Positions 2,697 through 16,236 of a stretch of 58,260 bases of DNA are shown here, piece after piece. Below the pieces are notes generated by a model that saw only the letters and a program-made list of their open reading frames with translations, did no database searches and was not told the DNA's origin. The stretch comes from a bacterium (GTDB lineage: Bacteria; UBA9089; CG2-30-40-21; SBAY01). The stretch lies in the NCBI GenBank assembly GCA_040757115.1, contig JBFLYA010000003.1, positions 1-58,260 of the forward strand. Direction: 5' to 3'. The position numbers were made by a program, and so were the translations under genes. The number at the start of each line of letters is the position of its first letter. The stretch's first letter is position 1.

Positions 2697-4535
2697 TTAC
2701 TTTGTTTGAATATCTTCATCATCCTCAAGTAAAAGCAACTCATGGTCTTCTTTGGAATAATTATCTTCTTCAGATGGTTGTTGAGATAGATTCAATTTAT
2801 CTGGAGAAGAAGGTGGCTGTTCCCATTGTGGAGGAACCCCACCTATCCCTGGTGGATATTGACCTGGTTGTTGCGGATAATTTACTCCCCCTATTGGTTG
2901 CTGAGGGGGCGGAGGCGGATAATATCCACCTGCTCCTGATGGAGGTGGATATTGACCTGGTTGTTGTGACCAACCTCTTCCTCGAGTTGGCTGTTGAGGT
3001 GATGAAGGATGGGAGCGGATTCCTTTAATACGAAGTCCAGAACCACTATCCTGTGGTGGAGCTATAGGTGGTTGTTGTGGTGATGGAGGTGGATAAGGGG
3101 GCCATGGATGAGGGCCACCGTATTGTGGTGGATACTGACCCGGTGGAGGAGGTGGATAGTAAACTGGTTGTTGAGGTGGTTGAGGTCCATAATAAGTTCC
3201 TGAAGGCGGAGGAGGTGGACTACCCCATTGAGGAGGGCCACTATATGGCGGTGGATATTGGTCTGGTGGAGGTGGATAATTCCTTACCTGTGGTGAGGTT
3301 GATATATAAGTAGGTTGACCATAGGATGGTCGTTCTCCGATTCCATCAGAAGAAGAAACTCCATGTCTTATAGGTCTCCGAACAGGAGGTGCTATGGGAG
3401 GTATTAATCGTTCTCTCAGTAAAGTATAGATATGGGGAAGAAAGTAAAAGAATATAATGATGCCTAACATAATTGTAAAAGTTATCAGTCTCTCAGGTAT
3501 AATTTCCTGATGAAGAATTTGCTTGCGTTTTTCAGGATCTTCTGGTAGTATTAAACCAGGAATATTAGAAAAATTAATCTTATAAGGGGCTGACTGTACA
3601 TTGTTACTAAGTTGGACCTTATATTCTACAGCATCAACCAATTTTTTCAATTCAAGATTAGTTTTAAAAACAAGTTGATACTCCTTAATAACCCCTAATT
3701 GTATATCTTGATAAATTTGAATAAGTCTATCGCTTGAAGGAGCATAGTAGTAATCACCATGAGACAAAAAAGCAAAATCTTTCAAGATATTCTCATCTAT
3801 ACCAGAATCATTTCTATATCGGGGATTTCCAAATCCTATAGTATAAATAGGAATATTTACCTCTTTAATCTTTTCACAAACTGGATTCACATCTGTCAAA
3901 CCTGTTTCCCCTTCTCTAACTCTAACATCATTCTTTCCATCAGTCAATAAAATAACTATCTGTCTCCCTCCTTGTGGTGATATAGATTCTAATGCTCTGA
4001 TTGTAGCAGAGTATAGGGCTGTGTTATAAGTTGTTGCTTGAAGAAATTCTATTTGGTTTTTCAGTTTTTCCTTATCAGAATAGAATACTATCCTAGAAAC
4101 TTCAGGTACATAACTATTAAAAGCCATTATTGCTACTTTATCGTAGTCCCGCATATTTTCAATAAAATGATAAGCTGATTCTTTAGCAGCATCTATTTTT
4201 CTCTTCCCTTGACCACTATCATTAGCCATACTTCCACTTGTATCTATTGCCAATACTGCAATCAATGGAGTATTACTTTCTCCGATAATAGTTATCTCCT
4301 CGGGAGTTCCTATGTTCTTACCATTTTCAAAAAGAGTAAAATCTTCTTTGACTAATTTTTCACTATAAGGCTTTTTCTCCTCATTAAGAACGGAGACATA
4401 AGCTTTCCCATGAGGACAGTTATCCATTTTCATTTGTCGCAAATGAACTGATGAGATTTCCTCAGCTAAACATCGATTAATCATCATAAAAAGCATCACC
4501 ATTAATATTAAACTAGTTTTCCTTCTCAAAAACAT
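2697..4535 (-). CDS. VWA-domain protein, secreted/membrane-anchored, Pro-Tyr-Gly-rich tail
   Basis: 612 aa. An N-terminal signal peptide (basic start, hydrophobic core, cleavage near CLAEE) precedes a von Willebrand A domain at about residues 85-275 with an intact MIDAS: D98-T-S-G-S102 and, later, LLTDGKND. A transmembrane helix follows at about 349-371 (ITFTIMLGIIIFFYFLP), then a long low-complexity tail (about 385-580) rich in Pro, Tyr, Gln and Gly, and an acidic end. The VWA domain should therefore face the periplasm and the tail the cytoplasm, if the signal is processed as read. The tail carries LRIKGIR at 501-507, a motif shared with other operon proteins. VWA proteins often partner with AAA+ ATPases, and one is encoded two genes upstream. 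The start has AGGAGGTG; the gene begins 6 bases after the FHA stop. Confidence 0.85.
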   Translation of the reverse strand: MFLRRKTSLILMVMLFMMINRCLAEEISSVHLRQMKMDNCPHGKAYVSVLNEEKKPYSEKLVKEDFTLFENGKNIGTPEEITIIGESNTPLIAVLAIDTSGSMANDSGQGKRKIDAAKESAYHFIENMRDYDKVAIMAFNSYVPEVSRIVFYSDKEKLKNQIEFLQATTYNTALYSATIRALESISPQGGRQIVILLTDGKNDVRVREGETGLTDVNPVCEKIKEVNIPIYTIGFGNPRYRNDSGIDENILKDFAFLSHGDYYYAPSSDRLIQIYQDIQLGVIKEYQLVFKTNLELKKLVDAVEYKVQLSNNVQSAPYKINFSNIPGLILPEDPEKRKQILHQEIIPERLITFTIMLGIIIFFYFLPHIYTLLRERLIPPIAPPVRRPIRHGVSSSDGIGERPSYGQPTYISTSPQVRNYPPPPDQYPPPYSGPPQWGSPPPPPSGTYYGPQPPQQPVYYPPPPPGQYPPQYGGPHPWPPYPPPSPQQPPIAPPQDSGSGLRIKGIRSHPSSPQQPTRGRGWSQQPGQYPPPSGAGGYYPPPPPQQPIGGVNYPQQPGQYPPGIGGVPPQWEQPPSSPDKLNLSQQPSEEDNYSKEDHELLLLEDDEDIQTK

Positions 4536-4541
4536 CTTTCT

Positions 4542-5489
4542 TCACCTCCTAATTTGTTCTCTTGGAGGAAGATTTGAAGAATCACCTGACGAACTTCTTA
4601 CTTTCAGAAATCTAAAGCAGCTACTGCCCAAACAAATAAGGTCTCCATGTTGAAGCTGTTGCTTTCTATCAATTTTATGACCATTTACATAAGTTTCCTC
4701 TCCTTGATTTGGTAGCTCATAAGGTGAGATAAAAAACTGTCTTCCTTCCCAAGAGATTGTTGCATGAAGGGAATCAATAAGTTCATCTCCGACTATTTGA
4801 ATGTTAGCCTTTGAGGAAAATCTACCTGGGTCTCCACTACCAATAATATTTCGAGCGTCACGGTAGAGAGACTTTTTATATTGCTCGCCATACTTTGATG
4901 ATTTATTCCCTTCTACCCCTTGCAAATAAGCATCTGACCCCAAGATACAAGCAAAACTTACTCCTGAAGCAATAGATGCTCCCAGAATAGTAATTCCCCA
5001 TGCCATAGAGACAGTTGGACCAAATATGGTACCCAGAAAGTGATGTATAAAACCTCCTATCAATCCTCCAATAGCTCCACCCAGAAGTCCATTAAGTGCC
5101 CGCCGCATTGACCTCCATCTTATCGCCTCTGCTATACTTACTAAAACACCTAAGGTGGACCATCCAAACATTCTTCCAAAATATGGAATTGTATCTTTGG
5201 TTGCTTCATACAGATAGAAAAATACTACTCCACCTAAACTACCACCAATGATTCCAGTTAACGCTCCCAATAGGAAATCACCAAGACAGGTAGTAATACC
5301 TGAATCCATAATTCTTTCAAGGGCACAAACAAAAGAACCAATGAATATTCCTACCAGACAACCCACAGCAACAGCGGTAATTAGTGGAGAAAATGAAAGG
5401 TCAACTATCCAACACGAGGTAAACCAGCCCAAGAGTCCTGCCAGACAACCTGTAACTCCAAAATAGTATATACTTCTAAAAAAAGTCAT
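4542..5489 (-). CDS. Polytopic membrane protein with C-terminal FHA domain
   Basis: 315 aa. Residues 1-195 contain about five or six hydrophobic Gly-rich helices (for example LLGALTGIIGGSLGGVVFFY). Residues about 225-297 form a forkhead-associated domain: SLHATISWEG (the SxxHA core), ETYVNGHKI (the NG turn), LQHGDLICLGSSCFRF. The usual GR before the core is present only as PGRF, so phosphothreonine binding may be altered. FHA domains read phosphopeptides, so this could recruit a phosphorylated partner to the membrane. No Ser/Thr kinase gene is in the window. It starts 3 bases after the AAA+ stop. Confidence 0.85.
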   Translation of the reverse strand: MTFFRSIYYFGVTGCLAGLLGWFTSCWIVDLSFSPLITAVAVGCLVGIFIGSFVCALERIMDSGITTCLGDFLLGALTGIIGGSLGGVVFFYLYEATKDTIPYFGRMFGWSTLGVLVSIAEAIRWRSMRRALNGLLGGAIGGLIGGFIHHFLGTIFGPTVSMAWGITILGASIASGVSFACILGSDAYLQGVEGNKSSKYGEQYKKSLYRDARNIIGSGDPGRFSSKANIQIVGDELIDSLHATISWEGRQFFISPYELPNQGEETYVNGHKIDRKQQLQHGDLICLGSSCFRFLKVRSSSGDSSNLPPREQIRR

Positions 5490-5492
5490 CTT

Positions 5493-7499
5493 TTATACAC
5501 CTCTTATTTGTGCTTCTAATTCCCTTATTTTTTGTCTTAAGGGAGCATTAGTCTTTGTTCTTTTGACTTCTTCTATAATTTCACTCAACCATTGAGGCAT
5601 TGTAAGAGGAAGCATACTGTAAAAATTAGTTGCCTCAAGAGCCAAAAGCGATTGATAATCATAGATAAGGGGGTCATGATTTGGTTTAAAATCAGCAATA
5701 GCATTTTTCAAATGGTCTATATTTACCTTTTTGGTCTTTGCATATTCAGCCGCGCGTCTTACAATGACCTCAATAGCGGAACCAGTCAAACCTTCTGTCT
5801 CAACGGTTACAAAATCAAAGTCAATACCATCATCATATTCTATTTTTACCTTCTTTTCCATCACTTCAAAGATACTCTTTCTATCCTCCTTATCTGGGGG
5901 TAAAAGGGGTATAACCTTATCAAATCGACGAAGCATAGCCTGGTCCAGAACATCTGGTCGATTAGTTGCGGCTACCCAAATTATCTTACCTCGATTAGAA
6001 TTATCCGACATAAATGTTAATATCTTAGCAAAAATACGCTGGCTTACTCCACTATCTCGACTATCTGTCATCCGAGAACCAAAAGCTTGATCAACTTCAT
6101 CTACAAATACTACTACTGGTGACAGTGCTAGTAAAATATCAAATACCTTAGAAAGATTCCGTTCACTTTCTCCTACCCACATACTGCGTATGTCCTTCAT
6201 TTTCACTAAGTTCATCGTTGCCTCTTTAGCCAGTGCTTCTGCCAGAATAGTTTTACCAGTCCCTGGAGGACCAACTAACAAAATTCCCTTAGGAAGTAAT
6301 TCTACTATGTCTAAAAGGATATTATCGTCTTTTATCTCTTTTTTTTGCTCAAAATATCGTTTTATATCAGCCACTTTCTCCTCAAGAAATTTCTTCACAT
6401 GGTCCAAACCACCTATCGAGTCAAAGCCATGTTTTGGCTCCATCACTTCTAACAAGTTATTACTTTCTGCTTCAATAATTTCCTTCTTCTTCTCTTTCAC
6501 TAAATCATAACTTACATTAATTCCCAGAGCTTTAGCAGAGTTAAAAAGATAATCTAAATCTTTAAGGTTAAACCCTGCGGTTATTTCAGCCAGTCCTTCC
6601 AATGTAGTCCCTTCTTCTAATTTTATTTTAGGCTTAATTTCTTCTAATGCCTTCACAACCTCTTCTAAAGTGGGAATATCTTCACCTGGCACCTTTTCCT
6701 TCTCTGATGTTGAAACTTCTTCTGAAGAGGGAGAACTTTTTTCTTCTGGCATATTTTTCTTTTCAGAGGAAAGAAATCTTAGAAATGCCAATCGTGTTTT
6801 TGCATCTGGTCGATCTATTTTAATAGCCTTACAGCCATAATGAGAATAGATGTCTGGATGGACTGCACCAAGATTTGGAGTTACTAATAGAACTATGTTA
6901 CCAGTATCCTGTCTAATCTTATAGTTCGAAGCCCACCGCTGTAATGTCTCAATCAAGATAATAGCATCTTTATCTTGAGTCCCTGCAGGCAGCAATTTAT
7001 CTACATATTCGATAACGATGGCAGTGCGATGTTCCTTTTGTAACAGAAGATGTTCAAAATTAGGAAAGACTTTCTTAGGGTCTCTGAATGTTTCATCCTG
7101 GGATTGCCTAGCTTGCCTCCCAAATCCTTCAACAACTTTGCGTGACTCTGTTGAAAGGTTTTTTAGTCTTTCTTCATCAGATTTTTCTGGTTCTTCTTCC
7201 TCACCAGCACCAAAAATAGGTAGAGCAAATCGTTTAAGTATGTCTTTTTTTGGCACTAAACCCTCTGGATAGGTAATTCCAGCTGACTGGCAATAGAATA
7301 AGATAATATCATACTTTAATGCCAGTCGCATGGTTAAAAATTCACGCAAGGATAATTTACCTTTTCCTGGCACATAGATAAAATCATTCACATTAAAGTA
7401 GAGAAGAAACATATGAGAGGCATTAGCATTATAGACATTATTAAGTTCTTCCAGCCAGGCAGGAGATTCCCAATTCTCTATAATATTAGTTTCTGACAT
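5493..7499 (-). CDS. AAA+ ATPase (CDC48/FtsH-like) with degenerate N-terminal module
   Basis: 668 aa. The C-terminal half is a classical AAA domain: GPPGTGKT Walker A at about 410-417, VVVFVDEVDQAFG Walker B at about 465-477, an N/R-rich sensor segment (AATNRPDVLDQAMLRRFD) with arginine finger near 520, and a lid after that. The first ~250 residues resemble an ATPase-like module without Walker motifs, followed by an acidic Ser/Glu linker. There is no HExxH protease motif, so it is an unfoldase/remodeller rather than FtsH. In the operon it plays the position expected of a CDC48-like segregase acting on modified proteins. The start follows the previous stop by 3 bases, inside a shared AAAGGAG site. 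Confidence 0.9.
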   Translation of the reverse strand: MSETNIIENWESPAWLEELNNVYNANASHMFLLYFNVNDFIYVPGKGKLSLREFLTMRLALKYDIILFYCQSAGITYPEGLVPKKDILKRFALPIFGAGEEEEPEKSDEERLKNLSTESRKVVEGFGRQARQSQDETFRDPKKVFPNFEHLLLQKEHRTAIVIEYVDKLLPAGTQDKDAIILIETLQRWASNYKIRQDTGNIVLLVTPNLGAVHPDIYSHYGCKAIKIDRPDAKTRLAFLRFLSSEKKNMPEEKSSPSSEEVSTSEKEKVPGEDIPTLEEVVKALEEIKPKIKLEEGTTLEGLAEITAGFNLKDLDYLFNSAKALGINVSYDLVKEKKKEIIEAESNNLLEVMEPKHGFDSIGGLDHVKKFLEEKVADIKRYFEQKKEIKDDNILLDIVELLPKGILLVGPPGTGKTILAEALAKEATMNLVKMKDIRSMWVGESERNLSKVFDILLALSPVVVFVDEVDQAFGSRMTDSRDSGVSQRIFAKILTFMSDNSNRGKIIWVAATNRPDVLDQAMLRRFDKVIPLLPPDKEDRKSIFEVMEKKVKIEYDDGIDFDFVTVETEGLTGSAIEVIVRRAAEYAKTKKVNIDHLKNAIADFKPNHDPLIYDYQSLLALEATNFYSMLPLTMPQWLSEIIEEVKRTKTNAPLRQKIRELEAQIRGV

Positions 7500-7502
7500 T
7501 AA

Positions 7503-9239
7503 TTAACTCCTTTCTTTTTCTTGAGGACTAATTTGTTTAACCATAGAGGTAGGAATAGTTTCTTCTAAAAGTTCTACAAAATGTGGGGAGATACAAACTT
7601 CACCTTGGGTATCTACCTCTACAATCCCTTTACCCTCAATCGAAAAAGTTTTGATAACCTTATTTTTACCAATAGTTTCTATTTCTATCTTATCATAGCC
7701 CATTTGGTGGAGTGATAGTAATATTCTATCTACTACTATATCTTGCAAAGTTCGCTCATCTTGAATAAGTTGTGGAATTGTTCCTGTTCCTTCTTTTACG
7801 CCAGTTACCTTATAATTTAAGTATATGCCTCGATTTTTTAACTCATCAAAAAAATGCTGTAACTCGGGTAGACAGGTAGCCTGACCTGCCTCATCGGATT
7901 TAAACCCATCGAGGTCATACAAAATTTCTCCCTCCGCGGAAACATTGACCCTAAAAATTTTCTCTCCTTTTATAGCTTTGTAATATATTCGCTCTTTTAT
8001 TTCAGACTTTTCAATTTCTGTATATTTCATTATTTGAAATACCTCTTCTATCTTTTGACTAATATGTGCCTGAAGATTTTGATTGAGGGTATTAATTGCC
8101 TTTTCTTTAATCTGATTAAATTTCTCCTGAGCATATTTTGCCTGGGACAGAGCATCATCTAATCTACCAGTGCGAAACATCTCTTGAGCTTCAGCTAAAG
8201 TCTGTTTTGCTTCCTCAAAGTTGTCTTTCAAAGTAAGTCTAACAATCTCTCTAACAGATTGAAGTGACTCTTCTTCACTCTTTTCTAACATTTCTATAAT
8301 AATCTCAGCATCTTCTACAGCTTTATCAAAATCTATTTGAATCTGGTTTGTTCTTTTTTCCCAGGTTTCTTTTTCTATCCTCAACCTATTACTTAAGTTA
8401 GACAAATGTTTAGTTATATCTTCCATGTGCTGCCAAACTATCGTGTAATTCTGGTCTTTCCAATTAGTGGTTATATCTCTAATCTCATCTTCTATTCTGC
8501 TAATCTCCTGTTGATTATTAGAAGGAAAAGAACCTGCAATTGTCTCTGTTTCTAATAAATCCAACTCCGCTTTCATTATCATTTCATGAATTTTCTCTGT
8601 CTGCTGATAGTGCTGTTCCTGAAGAACATAAGCTTTCTTCATTGTCTCTTGAAGCACACTTAAGGCTTCTTCTGCAAGACTATAAGAAGATGGAAATTCT
8701 CCTCTCTCTAAATTCTCTTTTCCTCGCTGTTCAATATTAACTATCCTATCTATTGCCTCTTTTTCTACAAATGGCAATCTCTGAACTTTTTCTAACATAA
8801 AATCCACTTCTTGCCAATTCATTGAAATTATTTGTTTAGCTGTTCTTTCCTCAGCCTCCTGGCCTAAAAATTTCAATTCTTCCCTAAATTGCTTTTCTTG
8901 CTGGAGATATTTCTGTCTTCTTTGTTCAATCTCCTGTTGCTCTTTAATAGCCTGTTTATGAGTCTGAAATCGTAATTTTTTATCTTTTCCTCGCTCTTTT
9001 TTGATAACTTCTGCTTTTTTCTGATGTTCTTTAATTAATTTAGTAACTCTCTGTTTTTCTTTCTCAAGCATCTTTTTTACTTTTTCTCTTCGTTTCTGAG
9101 CTATCTCTTGAGCGGTGTTATTAACTACTTCATATAACTTACAACCACAAAAAACCAATCCTTTGGCACCATAATAAACTCCGCTTACTGCTGCCCCTAA
9201 ACAAATTCCTATTACATCTGCTCCCCCTGCACTACTCAT
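7503..9239 (-). CDS. Long coiled-coil protein with N-terminal hydrophobic segment
   Basis: 578 aa, family not recognised. Residues 1-45 are small and hydrophobic (ADVIGICLGAAVSGVYYGAKGL) and could anchor it to the membrane. Residues about 45-400 are heptad-rich Glu/Lys/Gln coiled coil. The last ~170 residues form a compact domain with alternating strands (KGEKIFRVNVSAEGEILYDLDGF; later KTFSIEGKGIVEVDTQGEV) that looks like a duplicated beta-rich unit. It resembles architectures seen beside Ycf46-like ATPases, but I cannot name it. It directly precedes the AAA+ gene and probably works with it as adaptor or scaffold. Confidence 0.75.
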   Translation of the reverse strand: MSSAGGADVIGICLGAAVSGVYYGAKGLVFCGCKLYEVVNNTAQEIAQKRREKVKKMLEKEKQRVTKLIKEHQKKAEVIKKERGKDKKLRFQTHKQAIKEQQEIEQRRQKYLQQEKQFREELKFLGQEAEERTAKQIISMNWQEVDFMLEKVQRLPFVEKEAIDRIVNIEQRGKENLERGEFPSSYSLAEEALSVLQETMKKAYVLQEQHYQQTEKIHEMIMKAELDLLETETIAGSFPSNNQQEISRIEDEIRDITTNWKDQNYTIVWQHMEDITKHLSNLSNRLRIEKETWEKRTNQIQIDFDKAVEDAEIIIEMLEKSEEESLQSVREIVRLTLKDNFEEAKQTLAEAQEMFRTGRLDDALSQAKYAQEKFNQIKEKAINTLNQNLQAHISQKIEEVFQIMKYTEIEKSEIKERIYYKAIKGEKIFRVNVSAEGEILYDLDGFKSDEAGQATCLPELQHFFDELKNRGIYLNYKVTGVKEGTGTIPQLIQDERTLQDIVVDRILLSLHQMGYDKIEIETIGKNKVIKTFSIEGKGIVEVDTQGEVCISPHFVELLEETIPTSMVKQISPQEKERS

Positions 9240-9536: not shown

Positions 9537-10127
9537 TTATAAAGCTCCTTTTGTTGCCTCTTGAGAAATCCTCATCCTGTTCTTCAAATTTTTAACTTCA
9601 TCATTTAAGTCTTTGATTTGCTTTTTCAAGTTTTCATTTTCTGTCTTCAGTTTGTTACACTCATCTACAAGTTCATTATTGACCTTCTGTAAACTCTCCT
9701 TATCTGCATTCACTTTCTTAAGTATTTCTTCTATTTCTTTTACCTTATCTGCTTTCTGGTGATTTTGTTCTTCACTTTGTTGAAGTTTTTGAGATAAGAT
9801 TTCATTCTCCTTTGCTTTTTGAGAGATTAAACCTTCCTTTTCTTTTAATCTCCGCTGAACTTCATTAAGTTCAAATTGAAGGCTATTTATTTCTTGCCTA
9901 TGTTGTGTCTGTAGTATAGTAATCTGACTATTTAAAGAACGATTTTGAGTAGTTAGATTTTTTATTTCAGCCTTATAGCGTTCTATTTCAGTATGTAATT
10001 GTCGAATCTCTTTTTCCTGTCCTCCTAATAAGAGCGATGGGGTCCTACTCATATTAGAAACAGGAGTTGGTTTTCTTTTTCTTCGTACCCGTATATCTTT
10101 TATTTTCACACTCGAACTATTTTGCAT
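9537..10127 (-). CDS. Coiled-coil protein with basic N-terminal motif
   Basis: 196 aa. Residues 1-25 are basic and carry VKIKDIR at 7-13, similar to the LRIKGIR motif in the VWA, JAMM and E2 proteins. Residues about 35-185 are almost uninterrupted coiled coil (Glu/Lys/Asn/Gln heptads) with no transmembrane segment or enzyme motif. It is probably a cytoplasmic scaffold or spacer. The start has GGAG 8 bases upstream. A MITE-like element separates it from the next operon gene. Confidence 0.75.
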   Translation of the reverse strand: MQNSSSVKIKDIRVRRKRKPTPVSNMSRTPSLLLGGQEKEIRQLHTEIERYKAEIKNLTTQNRSLNSQITILQTQHRQEINSLQFELNEVQRRLKEKEGLISQKAKENEILSQKLQQSEEQNHQKADKVKEIEEILKKVNADKESLQKVNNELVDECNKLKTENENLKKQIKDLNDEVKNLKNRMRISQEATKGAL

Positions 10128-10170: not shown

Positions 10171-10305
10171 TTATCCTCCTATGAAATTATCCAATTTGGT
10201 GATTGTAACCTTAGCTACCTCACTCCACTTACCCTTTCTCTCATTATAGTCAATAGCTCTAATTCTATACTCAAGGATTTTCGTCAATCTGTTACCTCTG
10301 CCCAT
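10171..10305 (-). pseudogene. Duplicated end of an FN3 domain (44-codon remnant)
   Basis: An open frame gives KILEYRIRAIDYNERKGKW... SEVAKVTI, closely matching the end of the second FN3 domain of the JAMM gene just upstream (MYKIRTIGCNDEKGEW... SKVVKVTI). It is therefore a partial duplication in the 188-bp gap between the JAMM and coiled-coil genes. It has an ATG and ends Ile-Gly-Gly, but its FN3 homology argues against a modifier role. Confidence 0.6.
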
Positions 10306-10315
10306 TCTGCCCTAC

Positions 10316-12208
10316 TCATTTGTTTTCTTCTTTCAAACCTTCATTTCTCCTTACCCCCTCTTCACCACTATCGACATTCTGTAACGACTGGTCTTCCTTA
10401 TTTACATCTGATGGATTAGACATTTCTTCTTTTTTTACACTTGGTTGAAGTGGTTGTTGAGGTGAACCCTCATCCTTTTTTACGGTTGGACCTTTTTTTT
10501 TATCTTCCTTTTCTCTCTTTCTTGTGTTTGTATTCCAATTATTTTGCTGGCCCTTCTTTCTTTCTTCTTGGATTGTAACCTTAACCACCTTACTCCACTC
10601 CCCCTTTTCATCATTACAGCCAATAGTTCTAATTTTATACATAAGGTTTTTCTTTTGTTTTGGTGACCACTCATCGCTATATTCTTTTGAATTCCACGAA
10701 TATATATCTTTTAGTTTTTTAAAATCCTCCTCTCCCACTTTTACCTGAATTTCATAATATTTAACGGAACTATCTAAATTATCATTCCATTTCAAAATCA
10801 CAATTTTGCCATCTTTTTCCAGCTCAGCGTTGAATCCCGTAGGTGCTTCTAGTTTAGGTGGTATTGGTTCCTGTGGTATTGGTGACGAAAACTCTTTCGT
10901 ATAAGATTTATCATTTTGTAACTTGAGTGTTAAAGTATATTTGTAGTCTTTTCCCGGTAAGACATCTGTATCTTTATACTGCCCATTAATTATCTCTTGA
11001 TGACTAAGGGTTAGTGATTTATCATGCTCATTAGATGATGTTCTCTTTAAAATTCCGTCTTTGATTTCTTTTTCATCTACTCCTTTCAACTCCCATTTTA
11101 CAACTAATCCATCTTTAGATAGTTCGGGGCGCAATATATCAAATATATCATTAGAGACTGGATTACTTAGATTATCCTTTTTTTCTTGAGGGAATTCAAC
11201 AGGCCGTTCACTAGGGATTTCAACAGGTTGGAACATAAGGAAGATAAGGTAGATAAAGATGACAGCCATTACAATCATTCCACACCAAAGGATTATTTCC
11301 ATCACATCCTGGAAAGTAATTTCCTCCAGAGATTCAATAAGCTCACCCCAAATTTTTTTAATTGGATTAGGTTTTTTAGGACGGTATTGAGGTTCAGTTT
11401 TCTCATTAGATTGCCGATTTTGTCCTTTTGTAGGAATATTATTAACTCTGCGAGTTGAATAGTTATCCATGCAAGGGGAATAGTCATCCAGATAAAATTC
11501 AGCTCTACATTCTGAGTCTAACCTATCATTTTCCCAGATAAAGTATCCTGCTGTCTTCTTTTTAGGTTGAATAACCAAAGCTACATGCCAGGGCTGCATA
11601 AAATTGGTTTTCGCTAACTCTCGGTCAGGAGGAGAGAGTGAGATATCGTGACTTGGATGACTATGATACCAACCCACTTGTTTAAGATGTGAATACTTCT
11701 CTTGTTGTAGGTTTTTTACCCTATTTTTTTCTTGAGGGGTAAAGACAAAGTGGTCGTATCTGGCATTGTCATACTTCATAGGAATGGCTTCCTCAATATG
11801 AACCATATATGTTTCTCTTCCCATTTTCTTTACTGGAGGAGGCACATACCCTAACAAAATTCCTCCTGTTTCATTAGGAATTTTTTCTTGAGATTGAAAA
11901 AAGATTTTTTTGTAGACCCTCTTCACACAAAAAATTTCTACTGGAGAATTGGATACCTGCCAGGGAATCGTCTCGCCACTTATCTCTGTCTCCTTACTAT
12001 TTCGTATCCCTTTTATTCGTAGATTAGTAACATTTTGGTTCTCTTTCTCTTTACCCAATTCTTTTTCTTTCTCAGGGGGAGGTGACATAGCTGATTGAGA
12101 AGATACTTGACTCTGTCTGGGAATAGAAGGTTGTATAGATCCTATTTTATGTTCCCACTGTTCTAATCTTCTTTGTAACCAATTTTCTTCCTTTTCCTTC
12201 AAGTCCAT
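10316..12208 (-). CDS. JAMM/MPN metallopeptidase (deubiquitinase-like) with TM helix and FN3 domains
   Basis: 630 aa. Residues 1-80 are polar linker with LRIKGIR at 63-69. Residues about 90-245 are a JAB/MPN domain with the complete zinc signature: E113 (NETGG), H182-S-H184-P, S192 and D195 (HxHx7SxxD). Such enzymes cleave isopeptide or C-terminal bonds of ubiquitin-like proteins. A transmembrane helix lies at about 297-320 (VMEIILWCGMIVMAVIFIYLIF). Two fibronectin-III-like domains follow (about 345-445 and 450-550), then a charged low-complexity tail. With the peptidase in the cytoplasm, the FN3 domains would be periplasmic. The start has GAGGTG and lies 10 bases after the E2 stop. Confidence 0.9.
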   Translation of the reverse strand: MDLKEKEENWLQRRLEQWEHKIGSIQPSIPRQSQVSSQSAMSPPPEKEKELGKEKENQNVTNLRIKGIRNSKETEISGETIPWQVSNSPVEIFCVKRVYKKIFFQSQEKIPNETGGILLGYVPPPVKKMGRETYMVHIEEAIPMKYDNARYDHFVFTPQEKNRVKNLQQEKYSHLKQVGWYHSHPSHDISLSPPDRELAKTNFMQPWHVALVIQPKKKTAGYFIWENDRLDSECRAEFYLDDYSPCMDNYSTRRVNNIPTKGQNRQSNEKTEPQYRPKKPNPIKKIWGELIESLEEITFQDVMEIILWCGMIVMAVIFIYLIFLMFQPVEIPSERPVEFPQEKKDNLSNPVSNDIFDILRPELSKDGLVVKWELKGVDEKEIKDGILKRTSSNEHDKSLTLSHQEIINGQYKDTDVLPGKDYKYTLTLKLQNDKSYTKEFSSPIPQEPIPPKLEAPTGFNAELEKDGKIVILKWNDNLDSSVKYYEIQVKVGEEDFKKLKDIYSWNSKEYSDEWSPKQKKNLMYKIRTIGCNDEKGEWSKVVKVTIQEERKKGQQNNWNTNTRKREKEDKKKGPTVKKDEGSPQQPLQPSVKKEEMSNPSDVNKEDQSLQNVDSGEEGVRRNEGLKEENK

Positions 12209-12218
12209 ACTTCACCTC

Positions 12219-13079
12219 TTATATTTCAAGACTTTGCTTTTTAGTAGATTTCTCTGATGAATCCTTGTGCAATACTATTTTGACCCTTTTCTCTCCTAGT
12301 TTTAAAGGAAGTGTCAGCCCTACTCTACTTAAAGGAAAGAAGTCAGGATGTTTCTCTTTATAAGCCAAATACCATTCTTTGGCTTTAAGATTCATCCTCG
12401 GGTGGTCATCATCGAGGTTTACAGACCAATATTGTATCAATTTACAACACTGGACACAGGCATAAATCAAGTTACTGTCCAGTGGATACCATTCGAAGAA
12501 TAAGCATACATCCCTTTTCTTATCCATATTGGCATTAGGATGAAAAATATCGGTTACCGCGATTACAACTGGTCGAAGAATAGGATAATCTCGTGACAAT
12601 GTTAATCTAAGAATATGTTCATCTTCCTTTATTATTGGTTCTTTCTTATCGTCTAATCCACTAATTCCCTTTATCTTCATCAAAATAATTTCAATCTCTC
12701 CTGGAGATAGCCCCTTCACTCTTAGATGTTCAGGATTAGCCGTTGCTAACCGTAATAATCCAGCCCGGTCTTCTTGAACCCGGTTCGTGTTCTCATAGGC
12801 AGCTACTTCTGATGGGTCATATACTGAAATAACACTTCCTGGTGGGACACCCATGTTTGACAAACTATTATCAAGAAAGAGCTCCTCTTGATTCCAGAAA
12901 ACAGAGTACTGAACCTCTTGTCCCTTTTCATCATAGAGACGGATAGGATATTCTGTTCCTTGAGAGGTTCTGATAAGGTCTCTCAAGACATCTATCAAAG
13001 ATGTCTCATCATCCACTTCTACACTATACTCCTGCTGACCTTTTGGTGTAGTTACTACAAAAATAAAATTATTAATCAT
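12219..13079 (-). CDS. Ubiquitin-like domain fused to E2-like (UBC-fold) conjugating domain
   Basis: 286 aa. Residues 1-90 read as a beta-grasp Ubl: FIFVVTTPKGQQEYSVEV, helix SLIDVLRDLIRTSQ, then SLSNMGVPPGSVISVYD. A linker carries LRVKGL at 119-124. Residues about 130-250 follow the E2 plan: LRLTLSRDYPILRPVV strands, the H180-P-N turn (IFHPNAN), and catalytic-type Cys192 (KKRDVCLFFEWYP) 12 residues later, then the C-terminal helices. In the family this Cys carries the Ubl as a thioester. The Ubl does not end in Gly-Gly, so it is more likely a docking or regulatory domain than the conjugated tag. AGGAGGTG precedes the start. Confidence 0.85.
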   Translation of the reverse strand: MINNFIFVVTTPKGQQEYSVEVDDETSLIDVLRDLIRTSQGTEYPIRLYDEKGQEVQYSVFWNQEELFLDNSLSNMGVPPGSVISVYDPSEVAAYENTNRVQEDRAGLLRLATANPEHLRVKGLSPGEIEIILMKIKGISGLDDKKEPIIKEDEHILRLTLSRDYPILRPVVIAVTDIFHPNANMDKKRDVCLFFEWYPLDSNLIYACVQCCKLIQYWSVNLDDDHPRMNLKAKEWYLAYKEKHPDFFPLSRVGLTLPLKLGEKRVKIVLHKDSSEKSTKKQSLEI

Positions 13080-13110: not shown

Positions 13111-14226
13111 TTAACTTGACTTTTGAACGGAATAAGCAGGAAAATCCTCTTCAATCTTCCCCATTTCTCTCATTAAGAAGATTATCAAGATACCATTTGT
13201 TGGCTCCAAATCCAGAAGAGTTTCCGTTTTCTTTATGCTGAGTTTTCTTTCTGCTATTCTCTTTATCAAAGCGGGATTAATTGGTAATACGCAGTAGTTA
13301 TTGCCCACCTCTTTTATTTCAGGGATAAAAACTGGTAATAAATCTACTATTGATACATCTGCTGGCAGCCGTCCTGAATATAGTTTCAACTGAGCAAACA
13401 GAAATGAAACAGCAAATACTGTAACGATAGGTCGAAGAACTAATTCTTCACAAGGAAAGATATTCTGTTCGTAGAGTCGCTTTTCGTTGTCTATCCAAAT
13501 TCTTTTCTCTGGATGAACTAACCGATAATCTGTTATTCGAGATGCCTCTCCCTTATTCCATACTTCATTTGTTAATCTTAGGAAGTCAGGATGGTTAAAT
13601 ATTTGACTTACGGGCTGAAGACAATCTACATCAATCTCCACTCCTCCTTTTTCTCCAAATGTAGTTATCTTCATTTTAATAGACATAGGGTATGCAGTAA
13701 TACTCTCCCCTTCTTCTAAAACAAATGGAGTAGGGTCTTGTGCTTGAAGTAATTGTTTTCTACCCTTAACTAAAATGAAATTATTCCACTTAACATCTTG
13801 TTGTAGATATTGATACAGAGAATAGATAGGATACCTTCCATCCGTAGGGAAATATAATGAAAATTTTTCCCCCTGCCTATCTTTGCTAGTCCAATTAAGG
13901 ATCTCAACTACATCAGGGCTTTTAATCAATAGAAGATTTTCATGATGTCCCCTTAATTGTTCAAGAGAGAGTTTTAGATTTTTAACAATACCCCAGGAAT
14001 TACGGTTGGGAGAAAAAACAGCTACATTAGTTTGCGCTTCTCTCCACTTAATTTCAGCTAAAAGTTGTGTTTTTATGTCTTTCAAAGAGGTATTTGATGG
14101 AAACCCTCTTCTTTGTCTAAAAAGTGATGGTTGACCTTGCAACAACTCAATCCACTGGCACAGTTTATCTTCTTGTATTATCTTCCAATTACCTTCATAG
14201 GTGTATATATTAGGGAATAAATTCAT
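13111..14226 (-). CDS. Probable tandem beta-grasp (Ubl-like) protein of the conjugation operon
   Basis: 371 aa, no named family recognised. Two segments look like Ubl folds: about 125-185 (GEKFSLYFPTDGRYPIYSLY... ending VLEEGESITAYP) and about 186-270 (KMKITTFGEKGGVEIDV... YRLVHPEKRIWIDNEKRLYE... CEELVLRP). The second closely follows the ubiquitin pattern 'value-of-tag, defined, gap, early, output strand'. The first 120 residues are helical. The C-terminus (YSVQKSS) has no glycine tail, so any conjugation would need trimming. It lies between the RING and E2 genes with AGGAGG at its start. It may be the modifier precursor or an adaptor. Confidence 0.55.
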   Translation of the reverse strand: MNLFPNIYTYEGNWKIIQEDKLCQWIELLQGQPSLFRQRRGFPSNTSLKDIKTQLLAEIKWREAQTNVAVFSPNRNSWGIVKNLKLSLEQLRGHHENLLLIKSPDVVEILNWTSKDRQGEKFSLYFPTDGRYPIYSLYQYLQQDVKWNNFILVKGRKQLLQAQDPTPFVLEEGESITAYPMSIKMKITTFGEKGGVEIDVDCLQPVSQIFNHPDFLRLTNEVWNKGEASRITDYRLVHPEKRIWIDNEKRLYEQNIFPCEELVLRPIVTVFAVSFLFAQLKLYSGRLPADVSIVDLLPVFIPEIKEVGNNYCVLPINPALIKRIAERKLSIKKTETLLDLEPTNGILIIFLMREMGKIEEDFPAYSVQKSS

Positions 14227-14250: not shown

Positions 14251-14922
14251 TTAACTCTTCGTCTTTTTATAACTTCTGAGATTAATTTTGCACTCAGGAT
14301 TGAGGCATCTCCAGCGATTAGGTACTCCCCAACAATCTATACATAAGATAGTATCACAGTTAGGGCACTTTCTTAAGTCCAAGCTCTGTCCATCGCTTCC
14401 ACTATTTCTTCGACAGAGTGGACATATATAGTTAGGTATCAATAGAGTATTACCAAGTGCCTCTGGTATAGGTTCAAATTGAGTAGATGGAATAGCTGTT
14501 CTGACTACTTTATCTTTTTTACCATACGCTGGGAAAAATATAATCGTGAGCACCCCTATTATTACTCCTACCGCACTTGCTATTAAAATCAGAGAATGCT
14601 CATCAATGAATTTGTTTAATTCTACTTGAGAGATTTGTAGAATCAAATAAAAGAACAATAGAAAATTTCCTATTCCACAACCTATACCTTGCACTAGAAC
14701 AGTTAGAAGTCTCCACCTTTGAACCGACCTCAGTAGAAGAGCAATAACACATCCTACTACAAATTGGAGAATACCAAATACTATCCATGGAACCTTCACC
14801 CAAAAGAGTATCCCTCCTAATATTGCACCAAATAAGCTTATCACTCCTGAAACACCAAAATTTCTAATCTTATCCATATTCTGTTTTAATCTTCTCATGA
14901 ACAGATTTTTTCTCCTTTTCAT
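14251..14922 (-). CDS. Membrane protein with C-terminal RING-like zinc domain (candidate E3)
   Basis: 223 aa. Four hydrophobic helices (about 22-135) are followed by a cytoplasmic-looking linker and eight cysteines arranged in four pairs: C167/C170, C186/C189, C194/C197, C206/C211 (CPLC, CPNC, CIDC, CLNPEC). The alternation and spacing fit a RING-type or related binuclear treble-clef. RING proteins bring a charged E2 to its target, so this could be a membrane-bound E3. All ligands are Cys, so a rubredoxin-like or double zinc-ribbon fold remains possible. It overlaps the E1 stop by 4 bases (ATGA), meaning tight translational coupling. Confidence 0.75.
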   Translation of the reverse strand: MKRRKNLFMRRLKQNMDKIRNFGVSGVISLFGAILGGILFWVKVPWIVFGILQFVVGCVIALLLRSVQRWRLLTVLVQGIGCGIGNFLLFFYLILQISQVELNKFIDEHSLILIASAVGVIIGVLTIIFFPAYGKKDKVVRTAIPSTQFEPIPEALGNTLLIPNYICPLCRRNSGSDGQSLDLRKCPNCDTILCIDCWGVPNRWRCLNPECKINLRSYKKTKS

Positions 14923-16187
14923 TCAAAATTCATAACCTCCATTTCATCACCAGTCAATTCATAGAATTTACTTATACTTTTCTTTCCATCATCTATTACT
15001 GCCTCTAAGATATCCAGTTGACGCAGTCCTCCTTGTGTTAAGGTCAAATTAAGGAAATCAACATTTTCATCTAACTCACTCACAGACTTAGCTATTTCTT
15101 GAGGTGTCCCACAATGAGAGCAACTTTGATGCTCTATAAATACATACGGGGATTGATAAACCTTCTCAGTCTTTTTGCAATTAGGACAGGAGGCAGAGAT
15201 TACCAAATCATACCAAAGACTAATTCTTGCCTTCTTACCCAAATCCTTTTTAACTTTTTCAAGTAACTCGCCAATAGTGGTAGAATTAGAGTTAAACTCT
15301 TTAACCTCAATTATATCTTTTTCTGGGATAGGGGAACGAATTTGATGAATAAGACACTTTGGGTTACGGCGACGAGTAAATACTTCCATTTTATGGTCTT
15401 GTGTATCTATGTGAATAATCTTATTCAATAATGGTGTTATTTCTTCATTATTCATTAAAATTTTAAGTCCTTCTTGTACCTGAAGAGCACCAATAAGAGA
15501 AGCCATCATAGGTGTAGAAGGGACAAATCCTCTTTTTTCAGATTCTCTCTCAATTTCAGCGCAGATAACCCCTCTGCCTGTTCCTTTTTCCAGAATCTCC
15601 TTTACCATCTCTGATGATAGAGAACAAGCATAACAAGCTCCTGCAGGAACATCAAAAACTGTTACTGCTCCCCGTAAGACATTAACATCATTTAACCCGG
15701 CATCAATCCATGGTTTTTTAACCCGGATACAGGCATCGTTTAAAATAATACGGGGCAGGCGGCTGTCAAAATCACAAAAAATAAGGTCCATTCTACGCAA
15801 TACTCCTAAACCAAGTGAAGCAATATTCCCATGAAAAGTAGCTACTTTAACATCAGGATTAACTTCCTTTATTTGCTCAGCTACTACCTCTACTTTAGAA
15901 CGGCCAATATCTCTTTGGCGAAACATTATAGACCTGGTTAAATTAGAGAGCTCTATAATTTCCTTATCAACAAGTAAAATCTTACCACAGCCAATAAGAG
16001 CTAAGTTTTTAGCCACTTCATTGCCAATGGCTCCTACTCCACCTATCAGAGCCGTACTATTCTTAACCACACCTTGTTTCCACCCGTGGATAGTTTCTAA
16101 TCTAGAATATCTTTCTTTATCCTCATCCTCTTTATCTTTTTTACTGATAGAAATTTGCTTTTTGAGTGTTTTGGGTATTATATCCAT
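14919..16187 (-). CDS. E1-like ThiF/MoeB-family activating enzyme
   Basis: 422 aa. A Rossmann adenylation domain starts at GGVGAIG (G49) with the family's LVDKEIIELSNLTR segment after it. C185-Y-A-C188 is the likely catalytic or zinc Cys region. Further on are two CxxC-type pairs (CPNC and CSHC) in a C-terminal domain that resembles the E1 ubiquitin-fold domain. It should adenylate the C-terminus of a Ubl and pass it to the E2. A GTG at 16217 would lie inside the promoter, so I chose the ATG at 16187, which has GAGG upstream. It is the first gene of the operon. Confidence 0.9.
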   Translation of the reverse strand: MDIIPKTLKKQISISKKDKEDEDKERYSRLETIHGWKQGVVKNSTALIGGVGAIGNEVAKNLALIGCGKILLVDKEIIELSNLTRSIMFRQRDIGRSKVEVVAEQIKEVNPDVKVATFHGNIASLGLGVLRRMDLIFCDFDSRLPRIILNDACIRVKKPWIDAGLNDVNVLRGAVTVFDVPAGACYACSLSSEMVKEILEKGTGRGVICAEIERESEKRGFVPSTPMMASLIGALQVQEGLKILMNNEEITPLLNKIIHIDTQDHKMEVFTRRRNPKCLIHQIRSPIPEKDIIEVKEFNSNSTTIGELLEKVKKDLGKKARISLWYDLVISASCPNCKKTEKVYQSPYVFIEHQSCSHCGTPQEIAKSVSELDENVDFLNLTLTQGGLRQLDILEAVIDDGKKSISKFYELTGDEMEVMNFE

Positions 16188-16207
16188 TTGTGCCTCATTA
16201 TGAAAAT

Positions 16208-16236
16208 ATTTTACCACAAATTTTGTCCTTTGTCAA
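16208..16236 (-). promoter_or_regulatory. Sigma-70 promoter of the ubiquitin-like operon
   Basis: On the minus strand: TTGACA (16231-16236), exactly 17 bases, TAAAAT (16208-16213). Transcription should begin near 16201, leaving a leader of about 14 bases before the E1 start. A second copy of the same promoter lies at 20678-20706 on the plus strand. Confidence 0.85.

Follow-up and report, generated by a model that had tools for sequence, protein, structure and literature searches.

A ubiquitin-like domain joined to the N-terminus of an active-looking E2 in a bacterial E1-RING-JAB operon

Does a ubiquitin-like (Ubl) domain that is built into a bacterial E2 still serve as a conjugatable tag, or has it become a part of the enzyme? 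The question is raised by a 286-aa protein encoded in the window, by which we mean the whole stretch of DNA analysed here (58,260 nucleotides at the start of contig C3, in an assembly of 4.3 Mb that is 99.87% complete). The initial annotation, made from the letters alone, had placed the gene correctly at 12219-13079 and had left out its strand, which is the minus strand. A strong Shine-Dalgarno site (aaggaggtgtatcactaATG) precedes the ORF, and reading of the codons for residues 81-120 revealed no ATG, GTG or TTG, so that separate production of the E2 part is not indicated. The protein is divided as follows.

12219..13079, minus: Ubl-E2 fusion protein, 286 aa (ORF, E2 alignments, AF2 models, Foldseek)
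12816..13079, minus: predicted beta-grasp Ubl domain, residues 1-88, with the tail EVAAY where free Ubls end AG (AF2, Foldseek, alignment)
12738..12815, minus: predicted continuous helix, residues 89-114, leading from the Ubl into E2 helix alpha-1 (alignment, full-length AF2 model)
12333..12788, minus: UBC/E2 domain, residues ~98-250 (98-249), with HPN at 180-182, C192 and W197 (alignments, profile, AF2, Foldseek)

The two halves were modelled separately, in a full-length AF2 model built on an E2 alignment without any Ubl sequence and in a second model of the Ubl only. Regarding the E2 half, the window protein alone gave a sub-threshold match to Pfam UQ_con (E=0.0033), and the E2s of related loci matched the same family at 2.5e-9 to 5.5e-14. 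The window E2 is 26-32% identical to seven E2s of the same phylum in the alignment, and an alignment of 21 E2s (that of the window and 20 others, from several phyla) shows H180, P181, N182, C192 and W197 in every sequence. The HPN...C signature noticed originally is borne out by this alignment, in which C192 also occupies the E2 active-site position within a fold that AF2 predicts to be UBC. In fact, the profile of the 21 sequences matches solved E2s at 1.2e-13, the ten-residue blocks of the E2 core in the full-length model (residues 101-260) have pLDDT values of roughly 73-93, and the listed PDB matches of this model in Foldseek are all structures of an E2 (UBC), alone or as part of a fusion, with E values down to 9.2e-6 and prob 1.00. 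With a predicted UBC fold and with HPN and the catalytic cysteine in register, the E2 looks active.

For the Ubl half, Pfam gave no match and pairwise BLASTP gave no alignment between the fused and the free Ubls, and the claim therefore rests on profile, position and fold. The hhalign profile comparison with YukD-family free Ubls reached E=0.0044 for one comparison, with an alignment that is collinear across the whole domain, and 58/16,487 scored shuffles were equally good in the control; taken alone, this similarity is marginal. The fold evidence is good. The full-length model, computed without N-terminal homologues, already gave a beta-beta-alpha-beta-beta arrangement for residues 1-76 at low to moderate confidence. 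The Ubl-only model, with nine free Ubls aligned, reached a pLDDT of 81.8 and a pTM of 0.73, values that were helped by the input alignment and are supportive rather than independent; it has strands at residues 2-11, 14-23, 59-62 and 83-87 and a helix at 28-39. Foldseek matched it to ubiquitin, SUMO, the Ubl domains of EccD (YukD-type), a bacterial Ubl in complex with its deubiquitinase (8tyx) and a TmoB-type monooxygenase subunit, and also to UBX domains, of which one comes from a structure with p97. The proposal that the N-terminal ~90 residues form a beta-grasp is thus supported, and we consider residues 1-88 a predicted beta-grasp Ubl. All these data confirm that the presence of a Ubl on a catalytically plausible E2 is real.

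How the two halves are joined bears directly on the question of the tag. A linker had been supposed between them; however, residues 89-114 form a single helix in the full-length model and the alignments match the sequence from residue 100 on to helix 1 of ordinary E2s (R100, D104), so that this segment appears to be E2 helix alpha-1 and a free linker is absent. The relative placing of the domains in this model is unreliable, with a pTM of 0.58 and a pLDDT below 50 at residues 71-96. At the end of the Ubl, the ten aligned free Ubls finish in A-G, some of them with a few extra residues, whereas the fusion reads P-S-E-V-A-A-Y. A conjugatable tag would need a C-terminal glycine, free or exposable, and the window Ubl has A-A-Y in this place, in agreement with the original reading that the internal Ubl has no Gly-Gly end. 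Because the glycine is missing and the last strand runs directly into E2 helix alpha-1, the built-in Ubl is probably not a tag.

The gene is part of a ten-gene operon in which most genes are tightly packed and nearly all are preceded by a Shine-Dalgarno-like stretch. The other nine genes are, in the order of transcription, the following.

14919..16217, minus: E1-like ThiF-family enzyme, 432 aa, which keeps a candidate catalytic Cys and a zinc-ribbon tail (domain match, alignment)
14251..14922, minus: transmembrane protein with a C-terminal RING-like zinc finger, 8/8 ligand positions filled (weak Prok-RING_1 match, residue check)
13111..14226, minus: 371-aa protein, possibly tandem Ubls (weak YukD-like similarity at residues ~180-270 only)
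10316..12208, minus: JAB/JAMM metalloprotease with one transmembrane segment and, by reading only, an Fn3-like C-terminal part (JAMM residues intact)
9537..10127, minus: coiled-coil protein (domain annotation)
7503..9239, minus: coiled-coil-like protein, 578 aa (ORF and domain annotation)
5493..7499, minus: AAA ATPase, 668 aa (domain annotation)
4542..5489, minus: FHA protein, rich in transmembrane segments (homologue beside E1/E2/JAB genes in loci L027, L030, L033 and L041)
2697..4535, minus: vWA protein with a transmembrane segment (domain annotation)

Catalytic or zinc-ligand residues are kept in the E1, JAB and RING proteins: the E1 retains the motifs of the nucleotide site and a cysteine aligned with the conserved one of its relatives, the JAB retains the Glu and HSH-x7-S-x2-D, and in the RING-like finger one His ligand is replaced by Cys. 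The E1 lies on a long branch of the E1 tree and was not placed. It had been suggested that a Ubl on the E2 could act as an E1 docking element; as the C-terminal region with the zinc ribbon, known from its relatives, is still present in the E1, a special docking element on the E2 would be less necessary, although some room for one is left. Among 386 genomes, relatives of the AAA protein at E<=1e-60 were found only in the window, and no homologue of the 371-aa protein was found beyond it. By sequence reading only, the C-terminal GILIIFLMREMG-KIEED of this last protein could represent a final strand with glycine at its end and, behind it, a tail that can be removed. Moreover, the JAB gene and the coiled-coil gene are separated by a short ORF (window 10171-10305, minus) that is similar to the Fn3-like end of the JAB and is possibly a duplication remnant.

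The same genome contains a sister locus (C55) that offers an unfused comparison for the Ubl-E2 protein. It encodes an E1, a RING protein (70 aa), a Ubl (89 aa), an E2 (169 aa) and a JAB, and its Ubl belongs to the YukD family (Pfam, 6.7e-13) and ends in VVVAG. A Ubl profile run over the assembly found only this one free Ubl, and the window operon has no recognisable one of its own. The order at C55 is E1-RING-Ubl-E2-JAB and that of the window E1-RING-(371 aa)-Ubl.E2-JAB, which sets the fused Ubl at the equivalent place. It is mainly because of this common order that we propose a fusion of neighbouring ubl and e2 genes, with later loss of the tag glycine, as the most likely origin of the protein, and the Ubl-E2 illustrates how separate ubl and e2 genes could plausibly have given rise to a fused Ubl that is not a tag.

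No full-length orthologue of the Ubl-E2 was found in 19 genomes of the same phylum or in 386 sampled genomes, tblastn searches of phages and plasmids gave no match, and a single-protein query of a genome contig collection also gave 0 matches. An alignment-based query of the same collection retrieved 25 loci, and among them a Ubl ahead of the E2 was seen only in Actinocrispum wychmicini (L048); in three further candidates (L057-L059) no Ubl could be recognised ahead of the E2. Two longer E2 frames, of 252 aa (L034) and 235 aa (L035), were rejected as real longer E2s since they look like spurious upstream extensions. The E2 of L006 (same order) is identical to that of L028, from Candidatus Desantisbacteria CG2_30_40_21, and the phylum of the window is accordingly assumed to be Candidatus Desantisbacteria.

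The closest known systems are the bacterial E1-RING-Ubl(YukD)-E2-JAB loci (C55, which is L002, together with L004, L026, L027, L030, L033 and L041), which have their enzyme families in common with the window and, in the Desantisbacteria copies, also the gene order. In these loci, however, the Ubl is a separate protein of ~89 aa ending in AG, the E2 has about 165-212 aa without a Ubl, and neither an AAA nor a vWA gene was recognised in the stretches read, whereas the window has both. L027, L030, L033 and L041, from Armatimonadota and Bacillota, encode an E1, an E2, a JAB and a free Ubl along with a homologue of the window FHA protein (1.2e-14 to 1.2e-16); no Ubl was present on the E2s read there, and L030, L033 and L041 have two E2s and two JABs each. 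Two consecutive JAB genes downstream of the E2 were also observed in several Desantisbacteria-type loci (L004, L026, L028 and L029).

Ubl-E2 fusions do have precedents, in the Actinocrispum protein and in published polyUbl-inactive-E2 proteins. The former (L048:9341-10777) is a 478-aa protein encoded directly behind an E1 gene, in which a YukD-family Ubl (Pfam, 5.1e-7), ending in ATAG, immediately precedes an E2 that has HPN and Cys, as in the window; unlike the window protein, it also includes the JAB, keeps TAG at the Ubl end and is distant in sequence. Operon type 6e contains a polyUbl fused to an inactive E2/RWD-like domain (Iyer et al. 2006, PMC1779556), and shares with the window a Ubl placed N-terminal to an E2-fold domain and an operon with E1 and JAB. 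Its E2-like domain has no cysteine and its E1 is usually fused to the JAB, whereas the window E2 has C192 and HPN and the E1 and JAB are separate genes, which sets the window apart from this type. The Bil system (BilABCD) is likewise an operon of Ubl, E2, JAB and E1, in which BilA is a separate protein with two Ubls, BilB has a CEHH motif and BilD has one inactive and one active adenylation domain (PMC11354881). The window differs from it as well, as its 432-aa E1 has one ThiF match and its Ubl is fused to the E2.

The interpretation that we favor, and that we hold to be probable, is that of an active-looking E2 with an integral YukD-type Ubl which came from gene fusion, lost its glycine and now serves as a non-covalent docking or regulatory module and not as a tag. 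Ubl binding by the back face is conserved among E2s (PMC12687455), which makes a docking or regulatory role in cis the simplest reading. The Ubl beside the E2 could occupy a Ubl-binding site in cis, on the E2 backside or on the RING or the E1, and in this way would hold the E2 in its complex. In this scheme C192 of the E2 would accept a thioester-linked Ubl from the operon's E1, the membrane RING protein would take part in its transfer, and the JAB would process or remove it; as donor, either the free Ubl of C55 or a piece processed from the 371-aa protein might serve. The back-face contact of known E2s is non-covalent, is made with a second Ubl in trans and has a limited interface (SUMO:UBC9, ubiquitin:E2; PMC12687455), and an E2 with a built-in Ubl would make the role of this contact testable in one polypeptide. 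A further-reaching version, which we put forward only tentatively, is that an active E2 holds captive a copy of the modifier of its own system, which can no longer be conjugated and regulates the enzyme permanently in cis, for example as a Ubl fixed at the E2 backside, so that a tag would have turned into an enzyme domain by fusion of adjacent genes.

Other explanations have to be weighed against this docking or regulatory role. As already suggested in the initial annotation, the Ubl could be autoinhibitory, masking the E1/E3-binding surface of the E2 (the end of helix alpha-1) until a partner displaces it and activates the enzyme. The end of helix alpha-1 contacts E1 and RING in known E2s, the Ubl of parkin masks an E3 in a comparable way, and the Ubl of the window is predicted to be joined directly to this very helix. 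However, the predictions gave no confident interface and the searches no homologues in which co-conservation could be followed, and we regard autoinhibition as unlikely. Still less can be said for a role of the Ubl as adaptor to the AAA ATPase of the operon, by which tagging would be coupled to unfolding. UBX and Ubl domains serve p97 as such adaptors, the AAA gene is in the same operon and UBX domains, including the p97-bound one, appear among the Foldseek matches, but beta-grasp similarity is generic, and this role seems quite improbable.

The absence of a recognisable free Ubl from an operon with an intact JAB could also mean that the fusion is a tag precursor from which the JAB cuts off the Ubl, as the Actinocrispum protein could be, since it joins Ubl, E2 and JAB and keeps the internal T-A-G at the Ubl end. 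Nevertheless, the window Ubl ends in E-V-A-A-Y, without glycine, and the residues that follow are predicted to lie in a helix, and we give this explanation very little probability. Finally, a fusion that occurs once, beside an E1 on a long branch, might be a degenerating remnant, or an artefact of the assembly, in a non-functional locus; this is hardly credible for ten intact ORFs with ribosome sites and with catalytic residues conserved throughout.

A separate observation concerns the protein ends in the Ubl operons L027, L030, L032, L033 and L041, where unrelated proteins (a trypsin-like protease, E1, E2 and JAB) carry, at the N or C terminus, the short acidic-hydrophobic motif [DE][DE][LIV]x[IV]x[LFI], as in DDIDIEL or DDLEIEF. 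The motif is absent from the window's operon. It is present in 12/88 operon-region proteins and in 0/87 others, a count in which the pattern was chosen after examples were seen and homologous proteins were counted more than once; shuffling of the terminal windows gave a mean of 0.77 and a maximum of 4 in 300 trials. It is similar to SUMO-interacting motifs, and its role may be to bind the Ubl of the operon.
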